Source of the DNA: a virus
Strand: one strand, 5' to 3'
DNA: 46,567 bases
Virus record (IMG/VR): IMGVR_UViG_3300042321_001593
Span: 1 to 46,567 of that record
Positions 1 through 46,567 of the stretch are shown piece after piece. How positions within the stretch are numbered: position 1 is the first letter of the stretch; each line of letters starts with the position of its first letter. The position numbers were made by a program, and so were the translations under genes. The notes under the pieces are model-generated. The model made no database searches and had not been told where the DNA came from. It saw nothing but the letters and a program-made list of their open reading frames with translations.

Positions 1-127
1 GACAAAGCCAAACTCGAACTCGAACTGGTGCGGACGAGCGACAGCGTGTGGACGCTCAACGGGCGCGCGAAGCGGGGCAGCACCGCGCCCGCATTGCAGG
101 TCCGCGAGTCGCGGAATCAGTCCCGCC
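1..127. repeat. Terminal direct repeat (copy 1), circular-contig overlap
   Basis: Bases 1-127 are identical to 46441-46567. The reading frame of the tail-tip gene is continuous across the join (46441 minus 45940 is 501, a multiple of three). The simplest reading is that a circular or circularly permuted molecule was assembled with a fixed-length overlap; 127 is a common largest assembly k-mer. A physical terminal repeat of that length is less likely. Confidence 0.95.
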
Positions 128-5559: not shown

Positions 5560-5781
5560 GTGTCTCTGCGAGGAAACAAGACCTACGCCGTCGCCCTACT
5601 CACGATCCTCGTCGGCGCGCTGGCGCAGACCGACTGGGGCCAGTTCCTCGAAGACCCGAAAACCGGCATCGGATTACTGGTCGGCGGTGTGCTGATGGGC
5701 ATCATGCGTTACGTCACGCAGATCACGACGGTGAAGACGGCAGAACTTGCCGAGCCCCCGAAGACGGCCGAGGCGCCGTAA
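5560..5781 (+). CDS. Holin-like small membrane protein (73 aa)
   Basis: GTG 5560 is preferred over the in-frame GTG 5554 because GGGAGG (5549-5554) then lies at normal Shine-Dalgarno distance. Two hydrophobic stretches (YAVALLTILVGALAQ and GIGLLVGGVLMGIMRYVTQI) separated by an acidic turn (DWGQFLEDPKT) match small phage holins that end in a charged tail. It lies between the coiled-coil TM protein and the endolysin. Predicted to permeabilise the inner membrane at lysis. Confidence 0.7.
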   Translation: MSLRGNKTYAVALLTILVGALAQTDWGQFLEDPKTGIGLLVGGVLMGIMRYVTQITTVKTAELAEPPKTAEAP

Positions 5782-6396: not shown

Positions 6397-6617
6397 TGGC
6401 GACCCTGTCGACCTTCTCTTCGCGCGAGACACTGACGCTCGACGCGGTGTTCCCCGGGTGGCGCGCGATGCTTGGGCGCGTCGTCTGGGGCGCCTATGAC
6501 GCGCTCGATCCCGAGATGCCCATCACGACGCTTCGGAAATGGGGGCTCTCGTTCACGGTGCGCGTGCGGCACACCCGACCGCTGCTCGTCGCGCTCGTCG
6601 GCGAGGCGGGCGCGTGA
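6396..6617 (+). CDS. Hypothetical protein (73 aa)
   Basis: ATG 6396 is coupled to both neighbours. The protein (MATLSTFSSRETLTLDAVFP to LLVALVGEAGA) has no recognisable motif and no clear membrane segment. It lies between the lysis genes and the secreted protein at 6614. Confidence 0.6.
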   Translation: MATLSTFSSRETLTLDAVFPGWRAMLGRVVWGAYDALDPEMPITTLRKWGLSFTVRVRHTRPLLVALVGEAGA

Positions 6618-7396
6618 GGCGGGCGTCGGTGGTGGCGATGGCGCTCGCGACGGGCGGCGCGCTGGTGGTCGCCACGACCAGCCGCACCACGCCGGGCATC
6701 ACGTTTTCAAACACGCTCACGAGGGCACGAGACGGGCGTGTCATCACAAGCACACTCGTGCCGAAAGCGTCATGGCGCGGCGGCCAGACGTGGACGATCA
6801 CGATCCGGCACGACGCCGCGCCGGTCGAGTCGCTGACGTTCCGCACGCCGGGGATGGCGAAGTACGCTTTTGCTGATTCCGTGTGGGCACCGTTTCCGCG
6901 CTGCGTGCCCTATCGCGTGACCGTCGTGCCCGACACGGCGCTCACCGCCACCGGCCGCGCGCTCGCGCGCCGGGACTCGCTCACGGCGTCTCGGTCGCTC
7001 TGTCGTCCTTTCACGCGCGCCGAGGCGGCGTTCGCCGACTCGTTCCCGGCGTCGGGCTGGCGGATCACGTGGTGCGGAGGGTGGGCGCGCCGGCTCTCGA
7101 TGGCGGCGCTCGACTCGCTGCTCATGGACCGACTGCGCGCCGCGCGCACCGCCGACGACAGCAGTCGGGCGAGCCGTGAGGTCCGCGCCGCGCGGGCACG
7201 GCCCGACTCGGTCCCGCTGCCGCCGGGCGCGTGGGGGCAGCGGGATACGCTCGTCGCGGAGGTCGGGTTCGTGTATCCGGTGGCGGTGCTCGGCAAGAAC
7301 CGATATACCGGCACCGTCCGTTCGATCGAGGACACGCCGCCCTGCGCGGCGGAGCGCGCGGCCTACGAAGCCTCGTCCGAGGGGCGCGCTCCGTGA
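6614..7396 (+). CDS. Secreted or membrane-anchored protein of unknown function (260 aa)
   Basis: GTG 6614 overlaps the previous stop by four bases. The N-terminus is basic then hydrophobic (MRRASVVAMALATGGALVVA), typical of a signal peptide or anchor. The rest is soluble with four cysteines spaced for possible disulfides (FPRCVPY, SLCRPF, WCGGW, PPCAAE). It immediately precedes the sigma-factor gene with a four-base overlap. A role in superinfection exclusion or in membrane signalling to the sigma factor are possibilities only; it does not resemble known anti-sigma factors. Confidence 0.65.
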   Translation: MRRASVVAMALATGGALVVATTSRTTPGITFSNTLTRARDGRVITSTLVPKASWRGGQTWTITIRHDAAPVESLTFRTPGMAKYAFADSVWAPFPRCVPYRVTVVPDTALTATGRALARRDSLTASRSLCRPFTRAEAAFADSFPASGWRITWCGGWARRLSMAALDSLLMDRLRAARTADDSSRASREVRAARARPDSVPLPPGAWGQRDTLVAEVGFVYPVAVLGKNRYTGTVRSIEDTPPCAAERAAYEASSEGRAP

Positions 7397-8085
7397 GCAT
7401 CGTCGCCTACCTCCCGCAGATGAAGGCCGCGAAGCAGACCAGCGAGTCGGACGCGCGGGCCTACTGGGCGACCGGCGCTTGGCACCGCCTCGCCCCGCTC
7501 GTGCAGGGCTGGGCCGCCCTCGGCGTTCCGCTGACGCTCGGCCTCTCCGGCGACGACGTGGACGACATCGTCGCGCACGTGCTGGTCCGCGCGTGGACGC
7601 AGCGCGAGGTCCCGTCGGCGCCGGCCGCGTGGTGCCGCACCGTCGCGCACCACCGTGCGCTCGACACGCTCAAGCGGCGCGAGACGGTGTCCCTGGACAA
7701 ACACGAGCCGACGGCCGCCGTGCGCGACGTGGAGGGCGAGCTCCACTACCGGACCGAGGTCGGCCGCCTGCGGGTCGCGCTCCGGCGGCTCGCGGATCCG
7801 ATCCGGCGCGTCGTCGTGCTGCACTGGCTGCACGGCCAGCCGCACCACCAGATCGCCGCGACACTCGGCATCACGGAGGGCGCGAGCAAGATGCGCGCGT
7901 CCCGTGGGCTGCGGATGCTGCGGCAAGTGTACGGCGACACGCCGTCGCCAGGCCTCACCGCGCGCGGGCTGCCACGCAAGCCAGCCGGCCGCCCGCCGCG
8001 CCCCCAGCCGTGGCACGCGCTCTGCCGACTCGCCGCACCACCGAACGAGCCCTCTTCCCCTCATCCCGTGCCGACCCATGTCTGA
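7393..8085 (+). CDS. ECF-like sigma-70 family factor (230 aa)
   Basis: GTG 7393 is coupled to the upstream gene. Region 2 is visible at residues about 54-95: 'DDVDDIVAHVLVRAWTQ' followed by 'AWCRTVAHHRALDTLKRR', the ECF pattern for core RNA polymerase and -10 contact. Region 4 is at about 123-176: 'LRRLADPIRRVVVLHWLHG' then helix-turn-helix 'HHQIAATLGITEGASKMRAS'. There is no region 1 or 3, as in ECF factors. The last 50 residues are a Pro/Arg-rich tail not usual for the family. It is placed within the lysis/fibre operon, so it could direct late transcription, or act on the host as a lysogenic trait. Confidence 0.85.
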   Translation: MSIVAYLPQMKAAKQTSESDARAYWATGAWHRLAPLVQGWAALGVPLTLGLSGDDVDDIVAHVLVRAWTQREVPSAPAAWCRTVAHHRALDTLKRRETVSLDKHEPTAAVRDVEGELHYRTEVGRLRVALRRLADPIRRVVVLHWLHGQPHHQIAATLGITEGASKMRASRGLRMLRQVYGDTPSPGLTARGLPRKPAGRPPRPQPWHALCRLAAPPNEPSSPHPVPTHV

Positions 8086-8287
8086 GACCACCACGACGCT
8101 CGCTGACCGTTTGCACGCGCTCACCGCGCGCCACGGCGGCCACTGGACCCGCCACAAGAGCCCGGCGGGTGACGTGATCCGCCTGCACCTCGACACCGGC
8201 GACGTGCTCGCCGGCGCTGGCCCCACGACCGCCGACGCCGTCGCGGCGCTGGAGGCGAAGGCCGCCACCCTCACCGCCGCGAGCTGA
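8078..8287 (+). CDS. Small hypothetical protein (69 aa)
   Basis: ATG 8078 lies eight bases before the sigma-factor stop, in another frame. The protein (MSETTTTLADRLHALTARHG to AVAALEAKAATLTAAS) has a short central hairpin (DVIRLHLDTGDVLAGAG) between two helices. No family recognised. Its overlap with the sigma gene makes translational coupling likely. Confidence 0.6.
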   Translation: MSETTTTLADRLHALTARHGGHWTRHKSPAGDVIRLHLDTGDVLAGAGPTTADAVAALEAKAATLTAAS

Positions 8288-8291
8288 CCTC

Positions 8292-8873
8292 ATGCGCATC
8301 CCCTACGCTCTCCGCAACCTGCGCCACCGGCTCCGCGGCCTGCCGCAGGAGGCCTATCGCGTCGCCCGGCTCAAGGTGGCCGCCGAGCTCTCGTTCGTGC
8401 ACTTCACGGCGTGCGAACGTGGCGCGGATGGCGCTGTGCTGCTTGACGCGCTCGGCATCCCGCTCGCCTTCAATCGGCGCATCGACTACGGCGTCGTGTC
8501 GCGGCGGGTCGTCACCACCGCCGGCGTGAACTGGCTCGCGACAGCGTTCACGAACACGGTGGAGGCCGAGTCGCTCAACTGGCACGACGTCGGCACGGGC
8601 ACGACGGCCGAAGCGATCGGGCAGACGGCGCTCGTGACGCCCTACGGCGGCAGCCGCGCAAGCGGCACGCAGTCGACGCCGGGCTCGACCAACATCTACC
8701 AGTCTCAAGCGACGATCACGTTTGCCGGCACGTTCGCGGTCACCGAGCACGGGCTGTTTACCGCGTCGACCGCCGGCACGCTGTGGGACCGATCCCTGTT
8801 CTCGGCGATCAACGTGGTGAGCGCGGACAGTCTCCAGGCCACGCACCAGACCACCTTCCCGTCGGGCGGATAA
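8292..8873 (+). CDS. Virion structural protein, conserved phage family (193 aa)
   Basis: ATG 8292 follows five bases after the previous stop. A conserved phage structural pattern is clear: 'VVTTAGVNWLATAFTN', then 'WHDVGTGTTAEAIGQTALVT', then 'YQSQATITFAGTFAVTEHGL' and 'WDRSLFSAINVVSADSLQAT'. Proteins with this series of segments are common among siphophage tail or fibre genes. The N-terminal 40 residues are basic. It probably forms part of the tail tip or decorates the virion. Function within the virion is not known. Confidence 0.75.
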   Translation: MRIPYALRNLRHRLRGLPQEAYRVARLKVAAELSFVHFTACERGADGAVLLDALGIPLAFNRRIDYGVVSRRVVTTAGVNWLATAFTNTVEAESLNWHDVGTGTTAEAIGQTALVTPYGGSRASGTQSTPGSTNIYQSQATITFAGTFAVTEHGLFTASTAGTLWDRSLFSAINVVSADSLQATHQTTFPSGG

Positions 8874-8902
8874 CCGATGCCCGTCCTTCACGGAGTAGAC
8901 AC

Positions 8903-9331
8903 ATGGCGGTAAGCAAGTGGATCGCGGGCAGTCTTTCGACGGTGCTTGCATCAGAACTCAACTCGCTCGCCAACGACGCGGGCGTCGTGAGCGCCGCGCA
9001 ACCGCAGACGGCGCTCGACACCTACGCCGACTTTGAGCTTGTCTGCACACATGGCACGGCCCCCGTCGCGGACAAAACGTGGGACCTGTACCTCGTGCGA
9101 CAGCTCGACGGCACGAACTACGAGGATGCGAGCGCGTCGAGACCGCCGGCGAATGGATTCGCGGGTTCGTTCGTGTTGGATGCGGTCACGAGCGTCCAGC
9201 GTAAGGTGCTCCCCGGCATCCTGCTCCCGCCGTTCGCCTTCAAGCTCTTGCTCGTGAACAAGTCGGGACAGGCCGCGGCTGCGAGCGCGAACACGCTCAA
9301 GATGGAAACCTACAATATGCAGGTCATCTGA
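8903..9331 (+). CDS. Virion structural protein (142 aa)
   Basis: ATG 8903 has GGAG (8892-8895) upstream. The protein begins 'MAVSKWIAGSLSTVLASELN' and ends in a beta-rich half ('VLPGILLPPFAFKLLLVNKS'), a combination found in short structural proteins next to tail-fibre genes. It ends with a one-base overlap into the next gene. Likely a beta-sandwich accessory of the fibre; inference from position and strand pattern. Confidence 0.7.
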   Translation: MAVSKWIAGSLSTVLASELNSLANDAGVVSAAQPQTALDTYADFELVCTHGTAPVADKTWDLYLVRQLDGTNYEDASASRPPANGFAGSFVLDAVTSVQRKVLPGILLPPFAFKLLLVNKSGQAAAASANTLKMETYNMQVI

Positions 9332-9807
9332 TGCTCTACGTCATCGTGGACGCCCTCACGGGGCGCCAGCAGCGTGTGAGTACGGACGCGCTGTCTGTCG
9401 CCAACGCGAACGAAGCGTTAGTGCAGGTTGCCGGACTCAATGCGGAGCCTTCGTCCGCAGAGAAGAAGTGGGACGCGGCCACGCGGACGTATGTCAACGT
9501 CCCGACGTACGCGGGCGGCACCTACGCGCGCACGAAGCTCTCCCGTCGCGAATTTCGCAAACGGCTCGGGTCTGCGTGTCGCGTGGCGATCAACGTGCGC
9601 CTGAACACGCCGGCCGAGAACGCCGGCGCCGCGCAGATCATCGCGCAGTTGCAGGACATGAAGGATGAGCTGCTGTCGGTGAACGCGGTCGATGTCGAGC
9701 ACCCGACAACCATCGCGGCGGTCAACGCGCTGATGGCGCTTGGTTATCTCTCCGCTGAACTCGGCGCTGCGGCGCTGGTCCCGGCCACTGTCCCGGAAGA
9801 AGCGTAA
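9331..9807 (+). CDS. Fibre-associated protein sharing a domain with 4513-4842 (158 aa)
   Basis: ATG 9331 overlaps the previous stop. Residues 1-60 form a short beta-rich start ('MLYVIVDALTGRQQRVSTDA', 'KKWDAATRTYVNVPTY'). Residues about 68-152 resemble the small protein at 4513: LSR-x2-FR-x-RL, a helical middle, VDV-x2-P-x-T, and a Gly-turn followed by an alanine-rich helix. A chaperone or fibre-attachment function is possible. No enzyme signature is present. Confidence 0.7.
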   Translation: MLYVIVDALTGRQQRVSTDALSVANANEALVQVAGLNAEPSSAEKKWDAATRTYVNVPTYAGGTYARTKLSRREFRKRLGSACRVAINVRLNTPAENAGAAQIIAQLQDMKDELLSVNAVDVEHPTTIAAVNALMALGYLSAELGAAALVPATVPEEA

Positions 9808-9808
9808 C

Positions 9809-9931
9809 GTGCCGACGACAGCCACCGCTGCGGTGCTGGGCGTAATGCTCGGTGGCTGGCTCGTCGTCCTCGGCGTGTGGATCGTGGCGATGGCGTGGGC
9901 TGTGGACGACACACCGAAGGAGCAGCGCTAA
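9809..9931 (+). CDS. Tiny single-TM protein (40 aa)
   Basis: GTG 9809 follows one base after the previous stop and its TAA overlaps the next ATG. It is a nearly pure membrane segment (AAVLGVMLGGWLVVLGVWIV) with a short charged tail (DDTPKEQR). In a fibre operon such peptides may be membrane morons or lysis accessories. Coupling to both neighbours is the main reason for calling it. Confidence 0.55.
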   Translation: MPTTATAAVLGVMLGGWLVVLGVWIVAMAWAVDDTPKEQR

Positions 9932-10539
9932 TGCCGGGAATCATCGTCGCGGCAAAAGTGTGGCGCTGGACGCCGTGGGAGCGGTTCGACTATGACGCGA
10001 TCACTTACAGCCCGTATATGCAAATCGGCGGCATTGCGCCGTCGTATCGCGGCTCGCGCCTTAACCCGTACACAGACGGCACGGCTCCCAACACCGCGCA
10101 AAACGGGCGTGTCTTAAAGGGCCAGCAGCACCCTGATTTTCAGCCTCCGTACCGCGACACCACCAACACGGGCGGGGCTGACGGGACGGAAGGTGCGTTC
10201 CGGTTGGTAGACGTAAACAACAACCTGCCAAACGAGTTTACGAAGTGGACGCAGGAGTGGTTAGCCTTTCGGCAAACTGGTCGAGGGCGGCGCTTTCTTG
10301 AATGGGAGTGGCCGCGCTTGGTCAAAGCCGATGGGATGTGGCTTTCAACGGCAAACGACTGCGAACAGTATCGCGGTCGTCGCCCGATCTCGTGGAACTT
10401 GGATGCGTTCCTCCCCGGCAAGGGGTGGCACCGCGTCTATTCAGCGCGCAACATCGCAGTACCCACCACGAACGTGACATGGTACGGGCCGTTTGAGTTT
10501 CGGCAGATCAAGCCCGTTGACGGCGTGAGGGGACCGTGA
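9931..10539 (+). CDS. Tail-fibre-region protein of unknown fold (202 aa)
   Basis: ATG 9931 is coupled to the TM peptide. The protein is rich in Trp, Tyr, Asn and Pro ('VWRWTPWERFDYDAITYSPY', 'FLPGKGWHRVYSARN'), unlike its alanine-rich neighbours, and its DNA uses A/T at wobble positions more often (for example ttagcctttcggcaaactgg near 10261). This suggests acquisition from another genome, as is usual for host-range genes. No catalytic motif recognised. Confidence 0.65.
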   Translation: MPGIIVAAKVWRWTPWERFDYDAITYSPYMQIGGIAPSYRGSRLNPYTDGTAPNTAQNGRVLKGQQHPDFQPPYRDTTNTGGADGTEGAFRLVDVNNNLPNEFTKWTQEWLAFRQTGRGRRFLEWEWPRLVKADGMWLSTANDCEQYRGRRPISWNLDAFLPGKGWHRVYSARNIAVPTTNVTWYGPFEFRQIKPVDGVRGP

Positions 10540-11564
10540 ACCGCCGACTATGGACGCCGACTCAACTGCCGCGCACCTCGAATGTGTGGTGGTGGGATGC
10601 CTCTTTTGCGCCGTCGCTCACCTTCGGTTCTGGTGCAGCCGTGACGGGATGGCGCGATCGCCTACGCGGAGCAGTACTGGCAACGGTAGGAACGGCTCCG
10701 GTCCTCGCGCACGACAGCCGTGGCGCTCGCATTGTGTTTGATGCGACGGGTGGCTTTGTGTCTGCAGCCTCCTCCGGTACGCTGACAGACTTGTATAGCA
10801 TGACGGTGTGGGCGGTTGCCACCCTTAGCACAAGCGTGGGATCGACATTCTACAACCGCTTAGTGTCGTACTTCGGAGTGACCGGAGGAACCGACTACGC
10901 TACGGATGCCAGCTATATCCCAGTCCTCCTTTACAATGTCGCGGACGCCTTGCGGTCGTTCCGTACAGGGGATCGGGCATTTGCGGCTCCTATCACTCGT
11001 GGCGTCCCGTTCCTCGCGTCAAGCCGATTGATCCAAGAGAGCCAGCAGACGTACGCCGTGTCAGTCAACGGGAAACGAGGAGCACCTGAGTCGCTGTCAA
11101 GCGCTGCCATGACAAGCGGAGGGCGGTTCGGTATTGGCACTCGCGGCGATGCGTTTGACAGTTTTGCAACGTCTGACCCATGGGTCGGTGACATTCGCGA
11201 AGTCATCATCTACTCGGGTCGCGTCACGCCGCAGCTAGAGCAACGCGTCGAGGGATACCTTGCCGCCAAGTGGAACATTGCGCTGGCCTCTGGTCACCCG
11301 TATGCCTTTGCGCCGCCGACTATCGGGCCGCGCATGAACGCGGCCGGCGTCGCTTTTCGGCGCCTCGTACCGAGCAGCACGACGAGTAACACCGGCTGGA
11401 CACCGAGCAGCGGTACCGCGCACGCCGCGCTCGCCGCCGACGATGCGCTCTACGTTCGCGCCCTCACCAACGGTGCCACGTTGCGCGTAGGGCTCGGACA
11501 AGGCGAAGAGCAAGCAGCGGGGTACCTCGCCACACCCAATCCACGCCTCCCTATCATTCGCTGA
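10536..11564 (+). CDS. Lectin-like tail fibre protein (342 aa)
   Basis: GTG 10536 overlaps the previous stop by four bases. 'NVWWWDASFAPSLTFGSGAA' and 'GWRDRLRG' open a concanavalin/LamG-like domain, and residues about 215-250 ('VGDIREVIIYSGRVTPQLEQ' then 'YLAAKWNIAL') are its standard closing helix and strand. The remaining 90 residues form a small separate domain, perhaps a trimerising or attachment tip. Likely binds a host surface polysaccharide. The 5' part shares the lower-GC codon use of the gene before it. Confidence 0.7.
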   Translation: MNRRLWTPTQLPRTSNVWWWDASFAPSLTFGSGAAVTGWRDRLRGAVLATVGTAPVLAHDSRGARIVFDATGGFVSAASSGTLTDLYSMTVWAVATLSTSVGSTFYNRLVSYFGVTGGTDYATDASYIPVLLYNVADALRSFRTGDRAFAAPITRGVPFLASSRLIQESQQTYAVSVNGKRGAPESLSSAAMTSGGRFGIGTRGDAFDSFATSDPWVGDIREVIIYSGRVTPQLEQRVEGYLAAKWNIALASGHPYAFAPPTIGPRMNAAGVAFRRLVPSSTTSNTGWTPSSGTAHAALAADDALYVRALTNGATLRVGLGQGEEQAAGYLATPNPRLPIIR

Positions 11565-11573
11565 GGTCTGCAT

Positions 11574-12014
11574 ATGAGCTACACAAACGTTCCGATCACG
11601 CCTGGAACCGGCGCGAACGTCGCAGCCGACAATATCGGCGGCAACTTGTTCCAGAGGATGAAGCCGGCCGTCGGCGTGGAAAACAGTGCGGTCGATGTGA
11701 GCGACGAAAACCCGATGCCGATGAAGGCGATCGGCGAGCTCATCGAAGCGATCGAAGCGCAGCGCATGGCACTGCAGGCGCTCGTGCGCACGATCGGGCA
11801 GAGCTATCCCGACGTGGCGGGCCGCCTGCGCGTGGTGGTCGACTCGATCTCGGCGTCGCTGACGCTGGCGACGATCACGACGGTCGGCACCGTCACGACG
11901 GTGAGCACGCTGACCAACCAAACGCAGATCGGCGGTCTCGCCGCGACTGAGCAGATCCCCTCGCTGATGCGTCTCGGCGCAGACAGCGCACGCCGCAACA
12001 TCTCCGTTACCTGA
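11574..12014 (+). CDS. Phage structural protein (146 aa)
   Basis: ATG 11574 follows a nine-base gap. The protein starts 'MSYTNVPITPGTGANVAADN' and has a helix in the middle (AIGELIEAIEAQRMALQALV) followed by a Thr/Val/Ser strand region ('TLATITTVGTVTTVSTLTNQ'). This is a familiar layout of small phage proteins located near fibre genes. Probably a virion component; the exact role is unknown. Confidence 0.65.
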   Translation: MSYTNVPITPGTGANVAADNIGGNLFQRMKPAVGVENSAVDVSDENPMPMKAIGELIEAIEAQRMALQALVRTIGQSYPDVAGRLRVVVDSISASLTLATITTVGTVTTVSTLTNQTQIGGLAATEQIPSLMRLGADSARRNISVT

Positions 12015-12021
12015 GACGATC

Positions 12022-13464
12022 ATGGCTACGACGAACGGCAATCGCAAAGTGCTCGACCTCAAGCGGTGGGAGTTCTGTACGCCCGCCCCAACAGCGACCG
12101 TCGCGGGGGCGTTCATTGCGTCGTCGCGGCACTATCGCCAACAGCAGCTCTACGTCGCCAGCGCGACGGTGCAGTACCTCTACAACGCGCTGGAAGATGC
12201 GTGGACGCAGATTCCGTCGGGCGCATTGGCGGGCACGTTCGCCGTGGGCGCGTGTGGCACGGCCACCTCGGTCGGCCCCTCGGGCACGGCGACGGCGGGC
12301 ACGACCTCGACCATCACCACGAACCTGACGCTGGCCCGCGATCTGCGCGGCTACAGCATCCACATCACGGGTGGACCGAACGCTGGCGCGACACTGGCGA
12401 TCTCGTCAAACACGGTCGGCACGAACGCGGTCATCACCGTCCCGGTACAGGCGTCGGCGTTCACCACCTCGACCACGTATCGACTCCTCACGCCGCGCTG
12501 GTACGTCCTCAACGCCATCACGGCGTCTGGCACGACGACGGCGAACGTGTTCAAGTATTATGACTTTGCGCTGAATACGTGGGCCGCAGCCGAAACGGGC
12601 GCGACGGACGGTGTCGCCCCGGCGGCGGTGATCGGCACCGACTCCAAGTTGATCTCGACGCCGTCGTGGTTGGGGAGCGGGTATGTCGCCTTCGCCACTG
12701 GCACGGCCACGGCGGGCGGCGCATCGACGCTCACGAACAGCGCGAAGACGTGGACGACGAACCAGTGGACGAACTATCAGGTCCGCATCGTCTCGGGCAC
12801 GGGCGCAGGGCAGATCCGCACGATTGCGAGCAACACTGGCACGGCGCTTACGACATCGACAGCGTGGGCGACGCAGCCCGATGCCACGAGCGTGTACAAC
12901 ATCGAAGGGAACGACGACTTCCTGTACTATCTGGGGTCGAACGCCGTGACGCTGTACCGCTACAGCATCTCGGCGGGCACATGGACGACGCTGTCGCCGA
13001 CCGCCGCCCGTGCCGCTGCCCCGGCCGTGGGGATGTCGGCCCATTGGGTCTGGGAAGCGACCGACGCCGCGTGGACAAACGAGTCGGCCATCCTGAACGG
13101 GCGGTACATCTACTCATTCCGTGGTGGCGCTGGCGGCCTTCTCGACCGCTACGACATCGCGCTCAACACGTGGGCCAGCGCGCTGACGTACGCCCCCGCG
13201 ACCGAAGTGTTCGGCACGGGCAGCAAGTACGTCTACCGCAACGACAGCATCTACGCGCAGAAGGACGCCACGGGGCGCTGGCTCCGCTACAACGTCGTCA
13301 CGAGCGAGCAGGACGGGTGGTCGACGATGACGTACACGCAAGGCGCGGCCATCGCGGGCGACACGGCGTTCGACGTGCATTATTCCGACGGGGCCACCGA
13401 GATCGATTACGTGTACATGGTCCTCAACACCAGCACCGTGATGCTGCGCGCGATGGTGATCTGA
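12022..13464 (+). CDS. Kelch-like tail fibre protein with duplicated module (480 aa)
   Basis: ATG 12022. Kelch-type signatures recur: 'KYYDFALNTWAAAE' near 179, 'YRYSISAGTWTTLS' near 312, 'DRYDIALNTWASAL' near 376 and 'LRYNVVTSEQDGW' near 421, suggesting part of a beta-propeller. A second module is duplicated at about residues 88-157 and 226-296: both start GTATAG, contain Y-x-I/V-x-I-x-G and AG-x4-I-x-SNT, and end near T-x-Y. Such duplicated modules occur in phage fibres. It likely contributes to host recognition. It ends two bases before a small helical gene. Confidence 0.65.
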   Translation: MATTNGNRKVLDLKRWEFCTPAPTATVAGAFIASSRHYRQQQLYVASATVQYLYNALEDAWTQIPSGALAGTFAVGACGTATSVGPSGTATAGTTSTITTNLTLARDLRGYSIHITGGPNAGATLAISSNTVGTNAVITVPVQASAFTTSTTYRLLTPRWYVLNAITASGTTTANVFKYYDFALNTWAAAETGATDGVAPAAVIGTDSKLISTPSWLGSGYVAFATGTATAGGASTLTNSAKTWTTNQWTNYQVRIVSGTGAGQIRTIASNTGTALTTSTAWATQPDATSVYNIEGNDDFLYYLGSNAVTLYRYSISAGTWTTLSPTAARAAAPAVGMSAHWVWEATDAAWTNESAILNGRYIYSFRGGAGGLLDRYDIALNTWASALTYAPATEVFGTGSKYVYRNDSIYAQKDATGRWLRYNVVTSEQDGWSTMTYTQGAAIAGDTAFDVHYSDGATEIDYVYMVLNTSTVMLRAMVI

Positions 13465-13466
13465 CC

Positions 13467-13634
13467 ATGACGATCTCGCAGCTGGTCGAAATGGCGCGAA
13501 AGCGGCTCGTCCACTTGACGCAGCTTCGCGCCGCCGCGGAATCCCTCGGCGATGTGACGGCCGAGGCGACATTCGCCGCAGAGATTGGCGACACCGAGCT
13601 CACGCTCGCCTCGCTGCTGACGCTGTTGCCGTAG
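13467..13634 (+). CDS. Small helical protein (55 aa)
   Basis: ATG 13467 follows a two-base gap after the kelch-like gene and ends one base before the next start. The protein is two short helices (MTISQLVEMARKRLVHLTQL and ATFAAEIGDTELTLASLLTL). Its position and tight spacing support it. Small helical proteins like this often sit beside fibre genes; function unknown. Confidence 0.6.
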   Translation: MTISQLVEMARKRLVHLTQLRAAAESLGDVTAEATFAAEIGDTELTLASLLTLLP

Positions 13635-13635
13635 C

Positions 13636-14802
13636 GTGTCGCTCCTTCTCCTGCTCACGCACACCGACGGGTTGCTCCTCTCGATCTGGCAGGGCTCGAC
13701 GATCGTCGCGCAACGCTGGGTTCGGACGGCGCAACTCACGGCCAGCGACCAGACGTTCACGTTTGCGCTGACGGCCGGCGAGCGGGCGCTGATTGCCGAC
13801 GTGGACGCGCTCACGCTGTCGGGCGCGTGGTGGGGGACGACGGCGGCCAGCAGCGCGGACTGGGACGCGGCTGCCCTTGAGGTCATCGGGTCGAGCGGGA
13901 ACGTCCTGAGCGCCACGCTTTCCGTCGTGGCGCGCAAGACGGCCACCGGCGGGGTGACGTACACCGTCACGCTGACCGCCGCCGTCAGCGGAGTGGGCGG
14001 GCTGGTGCGCCGCCTGTCGCGGAGTTTCGCGGGGAGCGCGACGCCGGCCGGCGCCATTGCACGGCAGACGTCACGGACGATCGCCGCGTCGAGCACGGCG
14101 ACCGGCGCGCTGACGGTCATCCGCACGTTCGTGAGGTCGCTCACCGCCTCGCTCGCCGCCGCCGGCGCGCTCACGCGGTCCCTCACGAAGCCGCTCGCCG
14201 GAAGCATGGCCGCAACGGGCGCGCTGACGCGTCGGCTCACCCGCGCGCTCGCCGGGAGCGTGACCGCCGTCGGCACGCTGTCGGAGCGACTCAGTCGGAC
14301 GCTGGCGGCGGCCGTGACGGCCGCGGGCGCGCTGACGGCCACGAAGGTGGCCCTCCGCTCGTTCGCGGCGTCGGCGACTGCCGCGGGCGCGCTCACGCGA
14401 GAGGTCGGCAAGCCGCTCGCCTCGGCGTCGGCCGCCGCCGGTGCGATCCTCAAGGCCTCGTCCCGCGTGCTCGCGGGCAGTCTCACCGCCGCCGGATCGC
14501 TCGCCGACCGGCTGGCGCGCACGTTCGCCGCGTCGGTCGCGCCGACGGGGACCGTGGGCCGACAGCTCCGGCGCGCGCTCGCGGCCAGCGTGTCGGCCGT
14601 GGCTGCGCTCGCCGCCGCCGTCGGGAGCGTCGGGCCGGGGCTGATCCAGGCGGCGCTCACATGGACGGCGCGGCTCTTGGGCGACGTCACCAGCGTCGCG
14701 CGCTACACCGGCGACACGACCTCCCAGCCGCGGCACACCAGCGACGTCACCCAGCAGACGCGGCACACCGCGGACATCACCTACCGGAGCAACGATGGCT
14801 GA
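13636..14802 (+). CDS. Repeat-built fibre-region protein, eleven 18-20 aa repeats (388 aa)
   Basis: GTG 13636. Residues 1-120 form a beta-rich head. Residues about 124-325 consist of eleven tandem repeats with consensus RxLxRxLAxSxTAxGAL; the Gly of each GAL/GTL/GSL-like turn falls at 139, 157, 177, 195, 213, 231, 251, 269, 287 and 305 (the eleventh unit has Ala at 323), so the period is 18 with two units of 20. Each unit has basic, small and hydrophobic residues at fixed places. Residues 349-388 are a second array of four 10-residue units, each with an acidic-x-T turn (GDVT, GDTT, SDVT, ADIT) and arginine. It may form a long rod or a solenoid in the fibre. Function unknown. Confidence 0.75.
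   Translation: MSLLLLLTHTDGLLLSIWQGSTIVAQRWVRTAQLTASDQTFTFALTAGERALIADVDALTLSGAWWGTTAASSADWDAAALEVIGSSGNVLSATLSVVARKTATGGVTYTVTLTAAVSGVGGLVRRLSRSFAGSATPAGAIARQTSRTIAASSTATGALTVIRTFVRSLTASLAAAGALTRSLTKPLAGSMAATGALTRRLTRALAGSVTAVGTLSERLSRTLAAAVTAAGALTATKVALRSFAASATAAGALTREVGKPLASASAAAGAILKASSRVLAGSLTAAGSLADRLARTFAASVAPTGTVGRQLRRALAASVSAVAALAAAVGSVGPGLIQAALTWTARLLGDVTSVARYTGDTTSQPRHTSDVTQQTRHTADITYRSNDG
14005..14610 (+). repeat. Coding tandem repeat, eleven units of 54-60 bp
   Basis: The DNA encoding residues 124-325 of the protein at 13636. Units are diverged at nucleotide level but hold the motif RxLxRxLAxSxTAxGAL. Two units of 60 bp contain a two-codon insertion in the same place. Length change by recombination between units would keep the frame. 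Confidence 0.8.
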
Positions 14803-15160
14803 CAATCTCGACGACGAGCTGTTCCCCCATAACGACGATACCATCGTTGTGCGGCCAGTCGTGTTTCGTGCGAACCCCTCCACTGGGGTCGAGGAGACGA
14901 TCCCGCTCACCGGCCGTACCGACGGCGTGGCGTTCCTCTCCACGACCGAGGACATCAGCACCGCCACCGCGCTCTCTGGGTGCTCGATCTCGCTCGTCGA
15001 GATCGGGAGCACCGGGGTGTACACTGGCGTGATGGAAGGCAGCAACAAGGCCACGGCCCTGACGGCGACGCCCGACAACACGATTGTGTACCGCCACTTC
15101 CAGTTCGGCAGCGACTACCGCCGGGTCGTGTCGGTGATCTTCCGCAAGCGGCGCGTCTGA
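14795..15160 (+). CDS. Hypothetical structural protein (121 aa)
   Basis: ATG 14795 overlaps the end of the repeat protein by eight bases and its stop overlaps the next start by one. The protein begins with an acidic stretch (MADNLDDELFPHNDDT) and continues with beta-strand sequence ('VEIGSTGVYTGVMEGS', 'TIVYRHFQFGSDYRRVVSVI'). It looks like a small virion adaptor or decoration protein. No family recognised. Confidence 0.6.
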   Translation: MADNLDDELFPHNDDTIVVRPVVFRANPSTGVEETIPLTGRTDGVAFLSTTEDISTATALSGCSISLVEIGSTGVYTGVMEGSNKATALTATPDNTIVYRHFQFGSDYRRVVSVIFRKRRV

Positions 15161-15450
15161 TGGACAGCCGCGAAGTGCTGCTCACCGGCGACCGGCTGAC
15201 GCTCACGGTCGACTGTCCCGCCCCGGTCACGCGCGGCAGCGTGGACGTGTGCCTCTCCACGACGCGTGGCGGGCCACCGGTACACCCGACGCTGGCGCGC
15301 GCGTTGCTCGTGACCGACGGGACGATTCCGGCGCTCTCGCTGTTCACGAAGGATGTGCGGGCGACGTTTCCGCGGGGCGCGCGGGTGTGGCTGGTGGTGC
15401 GGTATGGGGGGCAGCTGCTGGCGAGCGGCGAGGTACGGGTGGTGGTATGA
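15160..15450 (+). CDS. Hypothetical protein, last gene of the rightward tail operon (96 aa)
   Basis: ATG 15160 overlaps the previous stop. The protein is mostly predicted strands ('EVLLTGDRLTLTVDCPAP', 'RVWLVVRYGGQLLASGEVRV'), like a small beta-sandwich. It is the final gene before the transcription direction reverses. Function unknown. Confidence 0.6.
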   Translation: MDSREVLLTGDRLTLTVDCPAPVTRGSVDVCLSTTRGGPPVHPTLARALLVTDGTIPALSLFTKDVRATFPRGARVWLVVRYGGQLLASGEVRVVV

Positions 15451-15535: not shown

Positions 15536-15619
15536 ATGATCTACGTCCTCTGCCGGGATGCGCGCCAGGCGTATGCGCTGGCGCGGGTGTGGGTGGCGAT
15601 TACGGCTCCACCGCCTTGA
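15536..15619 (+). pseudogene. Truncated start of a small phage gene (27 codons)
   Basis: ATG 15536 opens 'MIYVLCRDARQAYALARVWV', which resembles the beginning of small phage proteins with an M-(I/N)-x-V-x-RDxRQAxA-x-AR start. The frame then runs into the end of the leftward membrane-protein gene and stops at 15619. It therefore looks like the 5' stub of a gene whose remainder was replaced when the leftward pair was inserted. The match is by memory of the pattern only. Confidence 0.4.
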
Positions 15620-15872
15620 CCTGCCACCCTTTCGATCCGAGATGCTCGGCGTACTGGCGATTCGCGAACATCGGAATGATCAGGATGCCGAGCCAGTGCA
15701 AGACGCTCCCGGTAACGACGGCCAGCACGACCCAGAGCAGTCCGATGCCCCACATTCCTTTGTACAGGTACCAGAAGGCGCCGAAGAAGAAGCACGGCCA
15801 TGACCAGCCCTGGTAAATGTCGTTGGTGAGCCCCGTGTTGGGTTGCACCATTGTGCCGACTTTGACTCCCAT
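15600..15872 (-). CDS. Small membrane protein, leftward (90 aa)
   Basis: Start chosen at 15872 on the minus strand because AAGGAG lies eight bases upstream; the longer frame to 15926 has no ribosome site. The protein has hydrophobic segments (WSWPCFFFGAFWYLYKGMWG and LLWVVLAVVTGSVLHWLGIL) and a C-terminal soluble tail (YAEHLGSKGWQVKAVEP), the layout of small DUF2628-like membrane proteins. In a prophage it would be expressed independently of the lytic operon, as a moron. Possible superinfection or host-fitness trait. Confidence 0.7.
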   Translation of the reverse strand: MGVKVGTMVQPNTGLTNDIYQGWSWPCFFFGAFWYLYKGMWGIGLLWVVLAVVTGSVLHWLGILIIPMFANRQYAEHLGSKGWQVKAVEP

Positions 15873-15929
15873 TCCCTGCACTCCTTGCCGGATTTCCGAC
15901 GGTGATGAAGTGGTGGTGATGCGCAAAGC

Positions 15930-31250: not shown

Positions 31251-31624
31251 CGCCTCGCGTCGTGAAGGAACGCCCAGGCCGGCAGAAGCCGCTCGATATG
31301 AAGGTGGTCGAGGGCATGGCGTCAGTCGGCGCGACGAACGTCGAGATTGCTGACTTCCTCGGCGTATCAGAAGCGCTGGTTCGGAAGCGTGGCGCGGTCA
31401 TACTCGCCAAGGCGCGCGCTTCGCTGCGGATGCGCTTGCGGCAGGCGCAGATCAAAACGGCGATGGCCGGGAACCCCGCTATGCAGATCTGGCTCGGCAA
31501 GCAGATGCTCGGGCAGGTCGAGAAGCACGAGGTGAGCGGCACGGAAGGCGGGCACCCGATCGAGCTTGGTCTCAAGGTGATCCACGAGGTGATCGACCCG
31601 ATGCCGACCGAGCAGCAGGGCTAG
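31247..31624 (+). CDS. terS: Terminase small subunit (125 aa)
   Basis: GTG 31247 is coupled to the methyltransferase. 'TNVEIADFLGVSEALVRKRG' is a helix-turn-helix for pac or cos recognition, and 'AMAGNPAMQIWLGKQMLGQV' is the usual oligomerisation helix of phage small terminases. It lies directly upstream of the large subunit with a one-base overlap. Length is typical. Confidence 0.85.
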   Translation: MTPRVVKERPGRQKPLDMKVVEGMASVGATNVEIADFLGVSEALVRKRGAVILAKARASLRMRLRQAQIKTAMAGNPAMQIWLGKQMLGQVEKHEVSGTEGGHPIELGLKVIHEVIDPMPTEQQG

Positions 31625-36790: not shown

Positions 36791-36959
36791 CGTGGCCGCG
36801 TCGCGCTGAGCGCGGCGGGTAGGACGACAGTGCTGTAGGGCAGCGTCGCGCTGGGCGCGTGCTGATTCGCTCTCCCTCGGGAGGGTGCGTCTGTGCGCGT
36901 GCAGCGCGACGGCATTCGGCCATCGCACACGCGCGAACTCGATACTGAGGACTCGCTCG
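36791..36959 (+). promoter_or_regulatory. 169-base leader of the coat gene
   Basis: The gap has several GC-rich inverted repeats, for example CCCT-CGGG-AGGG at 36877-36888, but no clear promoter boxes. Its length, the second longest in the rightward operon, suggests extra control of the abundant coat protein, maybe an internal promoter or an mRNA processing site. Confidence 0.4.
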
Positions 36960-41631: not shown

Positions 41632-41990
41632 GCAGCCCCGCCGGCGAGGACCAGACGCACCGCGAGCAGTTGGCGGGGATGGCGCTGGCGGAACCGGCGA
41701 TGCTCGACGTGTTGCTCGACGATCTGGTCGGCCCCCCGTTGCCGCCGGTCGCGGCGCGGGCGTGGGACGTGTTCGGCCACGTCAGCGGTACGCGGTCGAG
41801 TGGGATGGGCGGGATCGGCGCGATCACCTACACCGAACTGCTGGCTTTTCAGACGTTGACCGGCACGACGCTGACCCCGCTCGACGTGGCGCTCGTGCGG
41901 GAAGCTGACCAGGCGTTTCTCAGTTTCGCGCTCACGCGCATGAAGTCGGCCGGTGATCGGCCCGAAGACACAGACGATCCGGGGGAGTAA
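41580..41990 (+). CDS. GT extension reached by -1 frameshift (136 codons)
   Basis: Open in the -1 frame from the slippery site to the TAA at 41988-41990, overlapping the tape measure ATG by one base. The shifted product would be about 288 residues (152 from gpG and 136 here). The extension, 'RPVLDAFRAFVEHHFRLSSP', 'LAEPAMLDVLLDDLVGPPLP', 'LTPLDVALVREADQAFLSFA', looks like the T domain that contacts the tape measure. An independent start at ATG 41670 is possible but has no good ribosome site. Confidence 0.85.
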   Translation, partial: RPVLDAFRAFVEHHFRLSSPAGEDQTHREQLAGMALAEPAMLDVLLDDLVGPPLPPVAARAWDVFGHVSGTRSSGMGGIGAITYTELLAFQTLTGTTLTPLDVALVREADQAFLSFALTRMKSAGDRPEDTDDPGE

Positions 41991-44900
41991 TGGCGCGCGT
42001 CGCACGGCTAGGGGTGGTGATCGATTCGTCGGGCGCGAAGAAAGGCGCGCAGGAAACGAATACCGCGCTGAATTCCATCGATCAGACCGCGAAGCGTGCC
42101 GTCGAATCCCTCAAGAAGGCCGCCGCCACGCTAGGGGTCGCGTTCGCCATCAAGGGCATTCAGCAGGCCGTCGACCAGTACACGTTGCTCGACGCGCGCC
42201 TCAGGCAGGTGACCGGCAGCGGGGCCGCGTTCGCCCGGGTGCAGCAGGAGCTGTTCACGATCGCGCAGAGCTCGCGCGCCAGCTACGCCGCGACGATCGA
42301 CCTCTACACCCGCCTCGCGCGCTCGTCAGATCAGCTGGGCATCTCGCAGACGCAGCTGGTGTCGGTGACGGAAGCGGTCAGCAACGCCGTGCGGCTGTCG
42401 AATGCGTCGACCGGCGCCGCCGAGGCGGGCCTCATGCAGCTGGGGCAGGCGTTCGCCTCGGGCACCCTGCGTGGCGACGAACTGCGCTCGATCATGGAGC
42501 AGCTGCCTGCCGTCGCGAAGGCGATCGCCGACGGGCTCGGGGTCCCGATCGGCCGCCTCCGCGAGATGGGCGAAGCGGGCGAGCTCTCCGGGCGCAAGGT
42601 CGCGCTCGCCCTCGACCAGCAGCGCGAGAAGCTCGCCCTGTTGGCAGGCGAGATCCCCACCACGATCGGGCAGGCGCTTACGCAGCTGAACAACGCGTTC
42701 GGCATGGTTGTCGCGGGGAGCGACGAGGCGAAGAGCGCGACGGCAGGCATTGCGGGCGCGCTCGGCGAAGCGGCGCGGTTCATGGTCGAGTACAAGGACG
42801 CCGTCGTTGCCGTGTCGGTCGCCCTCGGCGCTGGCGGTCTCGCGCTGGCGGCCGCCAAGGCGGGCACGGCGCTGGCCGCAACGTCTGGCGGCGCGGTGAT
42901 TACCGCGCTGCTGTCGCAGGTGACCGCCGTGACGTCGCTCTCGGCGGCGTACGCGTTCCTGCAACTGGCGGCAGGCGCGGCATGGACAGCGATTACCGGC
43001 CCGATTGGCCTTGCGATCGCGGGCATGACCGCCGTCGCCGCCGCCGTGTACTTCTGGCGCACGCGGCAGAAGGAGACCACCGAAGCCGTCAAGGAGACGA
43101 CGAAGTCCGCGGCGGATCTGTACGCGGCCGCGAAGAAGCTCGCTGAAGTGAACTGGGCACCGCCGGAAATGCTCACGCAGCTCCAGAACTTGGGCTTCGA
43201 ACTGCGCGCCGCGCAGACCGGCGGCAAGCAGGTGGTCGACGTCTATCGCGAAGCGTCGAAGGCGTGGAAGGACACGAGCGACAAGGCGCGCACGTTCGGG
43301 CAGGCGCTGGCCGAGGGCGACGCGAAGGCCAAGACGTTGCTCGCCACGACAACCGCGCAGGTGCAGCTGTCGGCACAGGTCGAGAGCACGCTTGACCGAC
43401 AGACCAAGGCGCAGCAGGCGGCGGCGAAGGCGACGGAAGACCGCGCCACGATCGAACGCGAGTATCAGGGGCAGTGGGTACAGCTCGGGATCGAACTCGC
43501 GGAACGCGCGGCGGCAGCGGAGCGGCAGCACGCGGAGGCAATACGGGAGTCCGCGAAGATCCTCGGCGAGATGCTCACGAAGCGTGCGGTCAGCAACGCG
43601 CAACTTCAAGCACAGGTCTCGGCGCTGCTGACCAGCCGTCGGGCCTACGACGACCTCACCGACTCGCAGGAGCGGCTGGCCGCCATGAACGCCGCATTGG
43701 CCGAAGCCCAGCAGAAGGGTGTCCTCGTTGGCCCGGCGATGCTCTTGATGATCGGGTCGCAGGTCGCGGAAACGCAGCGGCTGCTGAAGCTGAAGCAAGC
43801 GCTGCTTGAGCTCGACGGGAAATCGCCGTTCTCGATCCCGACCGAGGAGACGAAAGAGTGGGGCGCCTCCTTGGCGACCGTCGCGAACACGGCGCGGGAC
43901 ATTGCGCAGGTCTTCGGCAACGTCGGGACCGAGATCACGAAGGCCGTGCAGCTGGCCTCGCAGCTCGCGGCGAGCATCAGCGCTGCGAACAGGGCCGCCG
44001 CCGCCGCGAATGCGGCGAAGGGCAAGCCTGGCGAAGCTGCGGCGAAGGCGGCAAGCGGCGCCGCGAGCTTGGGCGTCGTCGCCGGTATCGCGTCGGTCGC
44101 GGTGGCGTTTGTGAGTGTGGCAAACACCATGATGAAGGCGCAACGCGAGGACGCGGCCGCGAAGAACGCGGCGAACCGCGCCTTTGCGCAGTCGGTCTCA
44201 GACTTCGCCGAGTCGTTGGCCGCGTCAGGGATGAGCGACCCCCAACGCCAGATCGCGTCAGGGCAGGCTGGGATTCAGGCGCTGGTCGATGCCGCGCTGA
44301 AAGCGACCGGGGCGCGCTACAGCGGCATTGTCCCTGGGATGCCGGCCTCGGCGGACAATCTTTCGTCGCTCAAAAGCTCGATCGACTTCACGATCGCGAG
44401 CGGGACGGCAGGGAAAGCGGCGGGTGCACTGCGGGAATTCTCGGATGCGCTCGCCGCGATCATTGTGCAGGCGAAGGCGTCTGAAGCCGCGATCGCCGCA
44501 CAGCAGGCCGCCCGCCTTGCCGCCGCGACCGAAGACCTTGAGGTCCGCCGGCTGACGGCCTTGGGTATGACCGACGAAGCCGCCGCGCGAAAGCTGGCGC
44601 TCGACCAGCAGCGCGAGATCGCCGCCGCCGAGAAGGAGTTCGGCAAGGACTCGCCGTATCTGGCGAGCTTGCGCGACGTGCAAGCTGCCGAGCGGGCCGC
44701 GGCGGAGGCCGCCCGCGCGCGGGTCGAAGCGCAGAAAGCGGCTGACCGCGTCGCGTTCGGCCTCGACCTGACGCAGCGCCGGCAGACGCTGAACGGTGAC
44801 AGCCGGGGCGCGTTCATCACGGGGCAGACGATCGCGAACAACAGCGCGCTGGCGCAGGCGCAGCAGCTGGTCGAGGCGGGCGTCATCACGGCCGCCATGT

Positions 44901-45943
44901 TCGAGGAGCTCAAGACGCTGCTCGGCGACGAGTTCGCCCAGGCGTTGCGGGACTTCGACGAGGCGGCACGCCAGGCGAAGCAGGCGGTGCAGGATGATCT
45001 CGCGGTTCGGGCCTTGGTGGCGCAGGGGCGCGGCACCGAAGCCGAGCAAGCCCGGATTGAGATCGCCAACCGCAAGGAACTTGAGGGCGTCACCGACGAA
45101 GGGCTGCGGGCGCAGATTCTGTACGTGCAAGGGCTGGAAGCCGTCGCCCGCGCGACCGAGGCCGCTGCCGAAGCCGAGCGGATCCGCGCCGAGCAGAACG
45201 CGAGCATCGACCAGCGCATGATCGATGCGCTGCGCATCCTCGACCCGGAGCGCGCGAAGGAACTCGAAGCCAGACAGACCGAGATCGACCGCGCCCGCGA
45301 GATCGCCAACGCTGCTGACGACGCCACGCGCGCCCGTCTGCGGGAGCTGTACGCCATGCAGGACGCCGCCAAGGCGGCGATTGCGCTCGCCGAGGCCATG
45401 GACGCACAGCGCAAGAAGGCCGAAGAGCTGGCGGACTTCACGCGCTCGATCGGCTCGCAGTACCTGCGCGCCACGGGTAAGAGCTTCGACGCCGACGTGG
45501 CCGACCTCAACGACTGGCGCACGACGCAGCTCAAGCAGGCGGCGAGCGTCGGTGCTGGCGCGGACGTCATCGCGCAGATCAACGCGATCTACGACGCGCG
45601 GTACAGCAAGCTGATTGCGGACCAGATGCAGGCCGACGCGCCGGCGCCCGTGACGGCACCCGCGTCACTCGGCGGCAGCACGGCGGTCGATCCGTCCATC
45701 ACCCTTGGCGAAGACACGATCGCGACGCGCTCGGCCCGTTCGATCACCGAGGCCACGGCGCTGCAGCTGGTGGACTACGCCGCGTCACAGACCGCCCTAC
45801 TCCGGCGCCTCGTGCAGCTGGCGGAAGGCGGCAGCGGGCCGACGGGCGAATCACTGCGCGCGCCGTCGCTCGACCTGGTCGACCGGCAGCTTGGCGCCCG
45901 GGCCAACACGGCGTCGCTCCTGCTGGCCGGGAGCGTGCGATGA
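41990..45943 (+). CDS. Tape measure protein (1317 aa)
   Basis: ATG 41990 overlaps the chaperone extension stop. Residues about 60-205 are a tape-measure core ('LDARLRQVTGSGAAFARVQQ', 'LTRLARSSDQLG'-like segments, 'DELRSIMEQLPAVAKAIADG', 'GRLREMGEAGELSG'). Hydrophobic segments near residues 270-350 ('VAVSVALGAGGLALAAAKAG', 'TGPIGLAIAGMTAVAAAVYF') and near 690-715 are as expected for a protein that enters the host membrane. Very long Ala/Arg/Glu helices fill the remainder. If ~0.15 nm per residue holds, the tail would be near 200 nm. Confidence 0.92.
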   Translation: MARVARLGVVIDSSGAKKGAQETNTALNSIDQTAKRAVESLKKAAATLGVAFAIKGIQQAVDQYTLLDARLRQVTGSGAAFARVQQELFTIAQSSRASYAATIDLYTRLARSSDQLGISQTQLVSVTEAVSNAVRLSNASTGAAEAGLMQLGQAFASGTLRGDELRSIMEQLPAVAKAIADGLGVPIGRLREMGEAGELSGRKVALALDQQREKLALLAGEIPTTIGQALTQLNNAFGMVVAGSDEAKSATAGIAGALGEAARFMVEYKDAVVAVSVALGAGGLALAAAKAGTALAATSGGAVITALLSQVTAVTSLSAAYAFLQLAAGAAWTAITGPIGLAIAGMTAVAAAVYFWRTRQKETTEAVKETTKSAADLYAAAKKLAEVNWAPPEMLTQLQNLGFELRAAQTGGKQVVDVYREASKAWKDTSDKARTFGQALAEGDAKAKTLLATTTAQVQLSAQVESTLDRQTKAQQAAAKATEDRATIEREYQGQWVQLGIELAERAAAAERQHAEAIRESAKILGEMLTKRAVSNAQLQAQVSALLTSRRAYDDLTDSQERLAAMNAALAEAQQKGVLVGPAMLLMIGSQVAETQRLLKLKQALLELDGKSPFSIPTEETKEWGASLATVANTARDIAQVFGNVGTEITKAVQLASQLAASISAANRAAAAANAAKGKPGEAAAKAASGAASLGVVAGIASVAVAFVSVANTMMKAQREDAAAKNAANRAFAQSVSDFAESLAASGMSDPQRQIASGQAGIQALVDAALKATGARYSGIVPGMPASADNLSSLKSSIDFTIASGTAGKAAGALREFSDALAAIIVQAKASEAAIAAQQAARLAAATEDLEVRRLTALGMTDEAAARKLALDQQREIAAAEKEFGKDSPYLASLRDVQAAERAAAEAARARVEAQKAADRVAFGLDLTQRRQTLNGDSRGAFITGQTIANNSALAQAQQLVEAGVITAAMFEELKTLLGDEFAQALRDFDEAARQAKQAVQDDLAVRALVAQGRGTEAEQARIEIANRKELEGVTDEGLRAQILYVQGLEAVARATEAAAEAERIRAEQNASIDQRMIDALRILDPERAKELEARQTEIDRAREIANAADDATRARLRELYAMQDAAKAAIALAEAMDAQRKKAEELADFTRSIGSQYLRATGKSFDADVADLNDWRTTQLKQAASVGAGADVIAQINAIYDARYSKLIADQMQADAPAPVTAPASLGGSTAVDPSITLGEDTIATRSARSITEATALQLVDYAASQTALLRRLVQLAEGGSGPTGESLRAPSLDLVDRQLGARANTASLLLAGSVR

Positions 45944-46567
45944 GCGCGGTCGGCGTCCTCTACACCGACTATACCGCCTCGGGCGGCCAACGCCTCGGCA
46001 CGCTGCTGATCGAAGGCGGGACCGAACGCACGCGCCTTGACGGCAACGAAACAACCGACCTCGTCGTCGGGCGCAAGCGATGGACCGACCTCGGCGGCGA
46101 TGTCCGCATGGTGGTCCGGCTGACGTGGCCCGACGGCACCATCACCGAACGGCGCATCGCGAAGGTGTCGACGACGGACACGGCCCCGACGACGCAGCTT
46201 GAACTGGTGCCCGTGTTCGCCGACCTCGGGACCGGCGGCCCCATCGTGCGCGTCGTGGCGGGCAAGGTGGCGACGCGGGTTGCGGGCGAACTGCCGGTCT
46301 CGGTGGCGCTCAGCACCTACGTGACGCCGCATTCGGCCGCGACGCGCATCGGGCTCGTGGTCGGCACCATCGAAAAGGACGTCGTCGTGCAGTTTGACCT
46401 CGACGCGCCGACGCCGGCCGCGCTTATTCTCGACGCGTTCGACAAAGCCAAACTCGAACTCGAACTGGTGCGGACGAGCGACAGCGTGTGGACGCTCAAC
46501 GGGCGCGCGAAGCGGGGCAGCACCGCGCCCGCATTGCAGGTCCGCGAGTCGCGGAATCAGTCCCGCC
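45940..46567 (+). CDS. Large tail-tip protein, 5' part (continues at position 1)
   Basis: ATG 45940 (ATGA overlap with the tape measure stop) opens 'MSAVGVLYTDYTASGGQRLG'. The frame is continuous into position 1 (46441 is the first base of codon 168), so this and 1-2991 are one gene of 1163 residues. The N-terminal part has a strand-rich beginning ('LLIEGGTERTRLDGNETTDL', 'MVVRLTWPDGTITERRIAKV') like a baseplate-hub attachment domain. Confidence 0.85.
   Translation, partial: MSAVGVLYTDYTASGGQRLGTLLIEGGTERTRLDGNETTDLVVGRKRWTDLGGDVRMVVRLTWPDGTITERRIAKVSTTDTAPTTQLELVPVFADLGTGGPIVRVVAGKVATRVAGELPVSVALSTYVTPHSAATRIGLVVGTIEKDVVVQFDLDAPTPAALILDAFDKAKLELELVRTSDSVWTLNGRAKRGSTAPALQVRESRNQSR
46441..46567. 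repeat. Terminal direct repeat (copy 2)
   Basis: Identical to 1-127. It shows that the sequence is a circle cut open, so the biological genome should be counted as 46,440 bp. Confidence 0.95.

Follow-up and report, generated by a model that had tools for sequence, protein, structure and literature searches.

A phage tandem-repeat gene interpreted as an allele at a hypervariable site that follows a conserved Kelch-like gene

What a phage does with a 388-residue protein that carries two tandem arrays of different period, and why its gene stands where it does, are the questions raised by one locus in the window, by which we mean the whole 46,567-nucleotide stretch analysed here (IMG/VR record IMGVR_UViG_3300042321_001593). 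The two ends of the window (1-127 and 46441-46567) are an identical 127-base repeat. The assembly is therefore circular and complete, with a tailed-phage genome of about 46.4 kb, and the ORF at 28-2991 probably begins upstream of the start chosen for the record. Tail-tip-type genes run from position 28, an endolysin gene lies at 5747, TerL at 31624, the major capsid protein (MCP) at 36885 and the tape measure at 41990-45943; the repeat gene lies near the end of the late region. It begins with GTG (Table 1) and is overlapped by a longer minus-strand ORF (13407-14690) that was ruled out as the real gene by synteny and N-terminal homology, since the N-terminus encoded by the plus frame has homologues in syntenic genes of loci L008 and L103, and since this frame starts right after the stop of the 55-aa gene and overlaps the next gene by 8 bases. 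An identical copy of the gene occurs in a second IMG/VR record (L002).

Table 1 Features of the repeat gene and its neighbours in the window.
Feature	Position	Strand	Basis or comparison
146-aa gene, usual companion of the Kelch-like gene	11574..12014	+	DNA homology island, amino-acid identity
Conserved Kelch-like gene, 480 aa, marks the cassette	12022..13464	+	474 viral-contig relatives; Kelch_4 below cut-off
Conserved 55-aa gene directly upstream of the slot	13467..13634	+	After the Kelch-like gene in 195/239 loci
Variable-slot gene, 388-aa repeat protein	13636..14802	+	ORF, autocorrelation, syntenic slot in ~240 loci
N-terminal segment, MxLLLLL start and small domain (QGST.. ..TFALTxxE..)	13636..13893	+	Homology to L008 and L103; predicted partly beta
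Array, eleven 18-20 aa units RxLxRxLAxSxTAxGAL	14005..14610	+	Lag-18 z 10.2, column counts
Array, four 10-aa units (ARYTGDTTSQ type)	14668..14787	+	Lag-10 z 9.2; decapeptide tails in L037, L072, L103, L131
121-aa gene next to the slot, closing the divergent island	14795..15160	+	32% to L008, 48% to the UKL202c phage
96-aa gene, right border where backbone identity resumes	15160..15450	+	90% to the UKL202c phage

The sequence-only reading had described eleven units of 18-20 residues followed by four decapeptides, and both arrays stand far above chance. The first, at residues 124-325, consists of exactly 11 head-to-tail units (nine of 18 and two of 20 residues) with the consensus T-R-R-L-S-R-x-L-A-[AG]-S-x-T-A-A-G-A-L, in which position 6 is R/K in 11/11 units, position 9 A in 10/11, position 11 S in 9/11 and position 16 G in 10/11; its lag-18 autocorrelation is 1.28 (z = 10.2), whereas no lag in 1,000 shuffles exceeded 0.53. 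The decapeptides (residues 345-384, n = 4) likewise exceed 1,000 shuffles at lag 10 (z = 9.2). Units of the 18-mer array are only ~62-74% alike in DNA, which argues that the array is old and not a recent product of slippage. The same reading knew of no named domain with this consensus, and the protein indeed had no match in Pfam, PHROGs or PDB sequences; neither a tail-fibre nor a receptor-binding domain was recognised in it. The protein gave no tblastn match in 50,697 phage records, and the only direct homologue of its 18-mer array was in the one identical contig. The solenoid, coiled rod or segmented shape thought likely from the regular period is not established: AlphaFold places helices over the 18-mer array at a pLDDT of ~40, which we set aside as a fold, and the hydrophobic moment of the units peaks at both 80 and 100 degrees, with Arg positions dominating, and does not discriminate between helix and strand.

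A separate N-terminal domain (residues 1 to ~86), passed over in the sequence-only reading together with the conserved genes upstream, is 39% identical to that of L008 (E = 2e-15) and 33% identical to that of L103, and it recurs with other arrays in L008, L103 and, by inspection, L173. AlphaFold predicts strands at residues 12-30 and 59-66 (pLDDT 54-77), and no relatives of the domain were found in the PDB.

The neighbouring genes define the position of the repeat gene across many phages. Relatives of the Kelch-like protein number 474 among viral contigs and 19 among genome contigs, the latter including many freshwater cyanobacterial metagenome-assembled genome (MAG) contigs; the match of the protein to Kelch_4 (E = 0.0012, 19.2 bits) falls below the Pfam cut-off of 21.6 in a test for a Kelch beta-propeller, and no PDB relatives were found. 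We inspected ~240 loci behind this gene (239 for the count of the small gene that follows): a gene of 53-55 aa comes next in 195 of the 239, the slot gene then follows, and the region behind the pair is hypervariable. At the slot, 138 of 193 loci have an MxLLxLL start, compared with 25 of 3,000 random positions. A mechanical cut yields ~74 clusters of slot proteins, a count that includes some mis-chosen ORFs; in a safer subset with a strict LL start and a length of at least 100 aa there are at least 44 alleles, 38 of these 44 clusters having significant repeats of unrelated sequence and mostly of period 20-24 aa, among which the period of 18 in the window is unusual. Decapeptide tails with a significant period of 10 occur in L037, L072, L103 and L131. 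The commonest alleles, only 53-55 aa long (28 and 21 loci), have no long array, and repeats are thus not essential to the slot; the most frequent of them, seen in L101 and 27 further loci, is a 53-aa protein whose short repeats are of the VWLKVSGVWK type. The slot proteins of L058 and L061, whose loci are ~98% identical except that L058 carries an additional ~0.77-kb segment, end in an acidic DDEEVLLLL. A comparison of repeat number among related phages, proposed in the sequence-only reading, proved to be misdirected: relatives mostly differ in the kind of repeat and not only in its number, which rules out repeat slippage as the main source of variation. Smith-Waterman z-scores between the arrays of different alleles were carried by shared periodicity and composition, and we do not take them as homology.

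Breaks inside the gene show how alleles are exchanged. Three sets of loci (L027/L034, L031/L032/L040 and L041) have near-identical first 108 residues of the slot protein and, after residue 108, three unrelated arrays with three different ends. At the DNA level, L032 and L034 are 98% identical from 2.7 kb upstream, through the Kelch-like gene, to slot codon 108, and have nothing in common past that codon or beyond 2.7 kb upstream. Both allele types recur in independent metagenomes with the same junctions, which rules out chimeric assembly as their source. The converse arrangement is seen between L031 and L039, whose arrays differ while the decapeptide tail and downstream DNA are 96% identical. 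Diversification by a diversity-generating retroelement was ruled out, as no reverse transcriptase (PF00078) is present in the window whereas positive controls matched.

As a rival view, the array could be a passive low-complexity spacer or shield that plays no part in binding and sets distance or masks the particle, its sequence drifting because almost any repeat would work. Arrays of unrelated sequence and length in one slot, versions of 53-55 aa with no long array, and compositions rich in Ala, Gly, Ser and Thr are all consistent with this, but we consider it rather improbable because the arrays show order in their strict periods and conserved positions, because one sister allele (L060, with 21-aa repeats) is predicted as a well-defined all-beta structure with two strands per repeat (pLDDT 77), although neither the PDB nor viral structures gave a significant match to it, and because drift alone does not explain the wholesale exchange of arrays.

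The cassette also crosses phage backbones. By capsid, the nearest relative of the window is a 48.6-kb phage contig in a Gemmatimonas sp. UKL202c MAG (MCP 97%, TerL 92%, portal 92%), another near relative being the record of L173 (MCP 87%). The window and the UKL202c phage are 82-97% identical in MCP, portal, TerL and the first two tail-tip genes, fall to 44-60% or no match from 6539 to 15160 (146-aa gene 44%, Kelch-like gene 60%, gene at 14795 48%) and return to 90% at 15160, so that a conserved syntenic backbone is broken by a divergent structural block, as in a host-recognition island. In the slot, the two phages carry different arrays, and BLAST aligns nothing except a weak N-terminal match. 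The block that differs from the UKL202c phage also holds a late-region ORF (7231-8085) matching a PHROG sigma-factor profile (1.9e-10); right after the island, on the minus strand at 15600-15926, lies a gene for a small protein with hydrophobic segments (GWSWPCFFFGAFWYLYKGMWGIG), which we take to resemble a DUF2628-type membrane protein. By contrast with the divergence from its capsid relative, the Kelch-like gene of the window is 90-92% identical to those of L017 and L037, and the 146-aa gene product is 82-87% identical in L017, L037 and L008. DNA homology to L017, L037, L064 and L081 is confined to ~1.6-2 kb around the Kelch-like gene, starting ~1.6-1.9 kb upstream of its stop. A search of 30 Kelch-bearing records found no window MCP and only weak TerL matches, in 4 of the 30; several of these records are fragments, in which single absences mean little. 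The high identity of the Kelch-like gene in L017 and L037, whose records gave no match to the window capsid gene, and the isolated DNA islands argue that the cassette moves between phage backbones. An analogous replacement is seen in cultured phages, Pam2 differing from PA-SR01 by a 5-kb block that lies between flanks of 97% and 85% identity and in Pam2 consists of the Kelch-like gene, a 54-aa gene and an MLLLLL repeat protein gene. The slot thus has a fixed position, a common MxLLxLL start, unrelated arrays and breaks within the gene, and it is transferred across phages with different capsids.

A Gemmatimonadota host is tentatively suggested by the Gemmatimonas MAG that holds the capsid relative, and further carriers of the cassette were found in cyanobacterial and other bins; contigs may be misassigned to bins in either case. 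L103 and L104 lie on two contigs in one Gemmatimonas sp. UKL202c MAG and belong to phages related to the window (MCP 97% for the contig of L103), which is a possible host link for an uncharacterised group of gemmatimonad phages.

On balance, we favour a mobile structural cassette with one hypervariable slot, of which the repeat gene of the window would be an allele. In this interpretation, the cassette combines a conserved base (the 146-aa, Kelch-like and 55-aa genes) with an interchangeable protein made of an anchor, a tandem-repeat array and an end module. The slot protein is most likely an interchangeable, surface-exposed fibre or adhesin module of the virion that diversifies by recombination, and the window repeat protein, one of many versions carried at this position in viruses of freshwater bacteria, probably contributes a variable element to the virus surface, altered by swaps of whole arrays. 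An exposed fibre or adhesin is favoured by slot alleles with tail-fibre domains, the collagen tail fibre behind the Kelch-like gene of phage S-CRM01, the late-gene context and the pattern of diversification. Specifically, the glycine-rich tail-fibre domain Gly_rich_2 occurs in L079 (1.1e-6) and, below the Pfam cut-off, in L043, and both alleles match PHROG tail families. The fibre assignment of the sequence-only reading is accordingly plausible on these domains in two alleles, the S-CRM01 fibre and the late structural region, while presence in the virion is a matter of inference; no proteomics for slot proteins, including those of Pam2, PA-SR01 and MinM1, was found in open text. In the mechanism that we propose, docking on the virion beside the Kelch-like protein would fall to the leucine-rich segment at the N-terminus, alone or together with a beta-sandwich or FN3-like domain, and the conserved N-terminal tag is likely to be this docking segment. 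The repeat array would form a long spacer or an adhesive shaft whose length can be tuned, and the C-terminus, whether decapeptides or an acidic helical end, would be exposed or bind the next protein; a swap of the whole array could alter host binding or allow the virion to escape host resistance.

Where on the virion such a protein would sit is less secure, because several phages have the cassette close to genes for the capsid or connector, which makes placement on the tail uncertain. A decoration fibre of the head or neck, such as a whisker or capsid spike, would put the cassette on the capsid or connector and provide weak general attachment to surfaces or mucilage. In MinM1, the Kelch-like, 55-aa and MLLLLL genes have DUF2190/capsid genes on one side and connector-type genes on the other; L026 has an HK97 capsid gene 1.7 kb downstream, L064 has one near the cassette, and a relative of the LamG-type neighbour in KBS-S-2A stands between the major head protein and head closure genes. 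We nonetheless regard this placement as unlikely, though the most serious alternative on offer, because the cassette of the window is far from the capsid genes, behind tail-tip, holin and endolysin genes, because it lies among tail genes in S-CRM01 and Pam2, and because some slot alleles have tail-fibre domains. Very improbable, by our estimate, is a late-expressed protein outside the virion that acts on the host surface, for example against superinfection, from a gene that merely stands beside structural genes; the silence of proteomics fits it as well as any reading, and the many leucines at the N-terminus might be taken to mark a segment associated with a membrane, but the gene is tightly linked to and overlaps structural-type genes, some alleles are recognisable tail-fibre domains and, by inspection, the MxLLLLL start has no signal-peptide-like charge pattern.

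Returning to the interchangeable virion module, its general kind, the hypervariable host-recognition island, is already known from marine phages, including the host recognition cluster of pelagimyophages (PMC7029224) and the hypervariable region of Polarivirus skadi (PMC10504331). There, as here, a non-syntenic structural or adhesin block lies between conserved structural genes, and in those phages it is tied to host recognition. Unlike those islands, variation here is focused on a single slot that follows a conserved pair of genes (Kelch-like and 55-aa), this pair is common to phages with different capsids, and it is mostly the kind of tandem repeat that varies. The cultured cyanophages Pam2 (Pam2_68) and MinM1 share the order of a Kelch-like gene, a 54-55 aa gene and an MLLLLL protein, but Pam2 has SLFSNSNSFY-type repeats and MinM1 decapeptides only, and Kelch identity is low (28-35%) for Pam2, MinM1 and S-CRM01. 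Glycine-rich (PF21722) and collagen (PF01391) tail-fibre proteins fill the same slot in some relatives, whereas the window protein matches neither. Repeats of 18-19 aa in phage structural genes, as in the window, also occur in L003 (KALADSV repeats), where the gene adjoins a BppU-like gene, and in Synechococcus phage BUCT-ZZ01 (L006, 3795-5618), whose baseplate wedge protein carries FTKxRSDTQGLSDD-type repeats as an array at its C-terminus; this likeness to the window repeats need not mean homology. L003 and L004 had been candidate homologues of the array (tblastn, 3e-6 against candidates), but an HMM of the window units gave them no support and matched neither L003 nor any other allele.

No description of a fixed Kelch-like and 55-aa base with a tagged slot for interchangeable arrays was found in the papers searched, all of them open full texts. 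Changes in phage host range are usually ascribed to point changes or to the exchange of tail-tip domains. In the present case, many unrelated repeat proteins, in phages that otherwise have no kinship, appear to share a constant N-terminal tag and a fixed docking site. We tentatively extend this to a broader proposal, to which we give somewhat less than an even chance: that the 146-aa, Kelch-like and 55-aa genes form a horizontally moving virion docking unit that accepts almost any MxLLxLL-tagged repeat protein, so that phages with unrelated capsids and tails would share both a plug-in site and a pool of arrays swapped by recombination within the gene. If the products are on the virion, the combination of a Kelch-like gene, a 55-aa gene and an MxLLxLL start would be a searchable adapter rule for surface proteins hidden among the hypothetical genes of freshwater phages, and cultured cyanophages would allow a direct test of how the type and length of the repeats bear on attachment.
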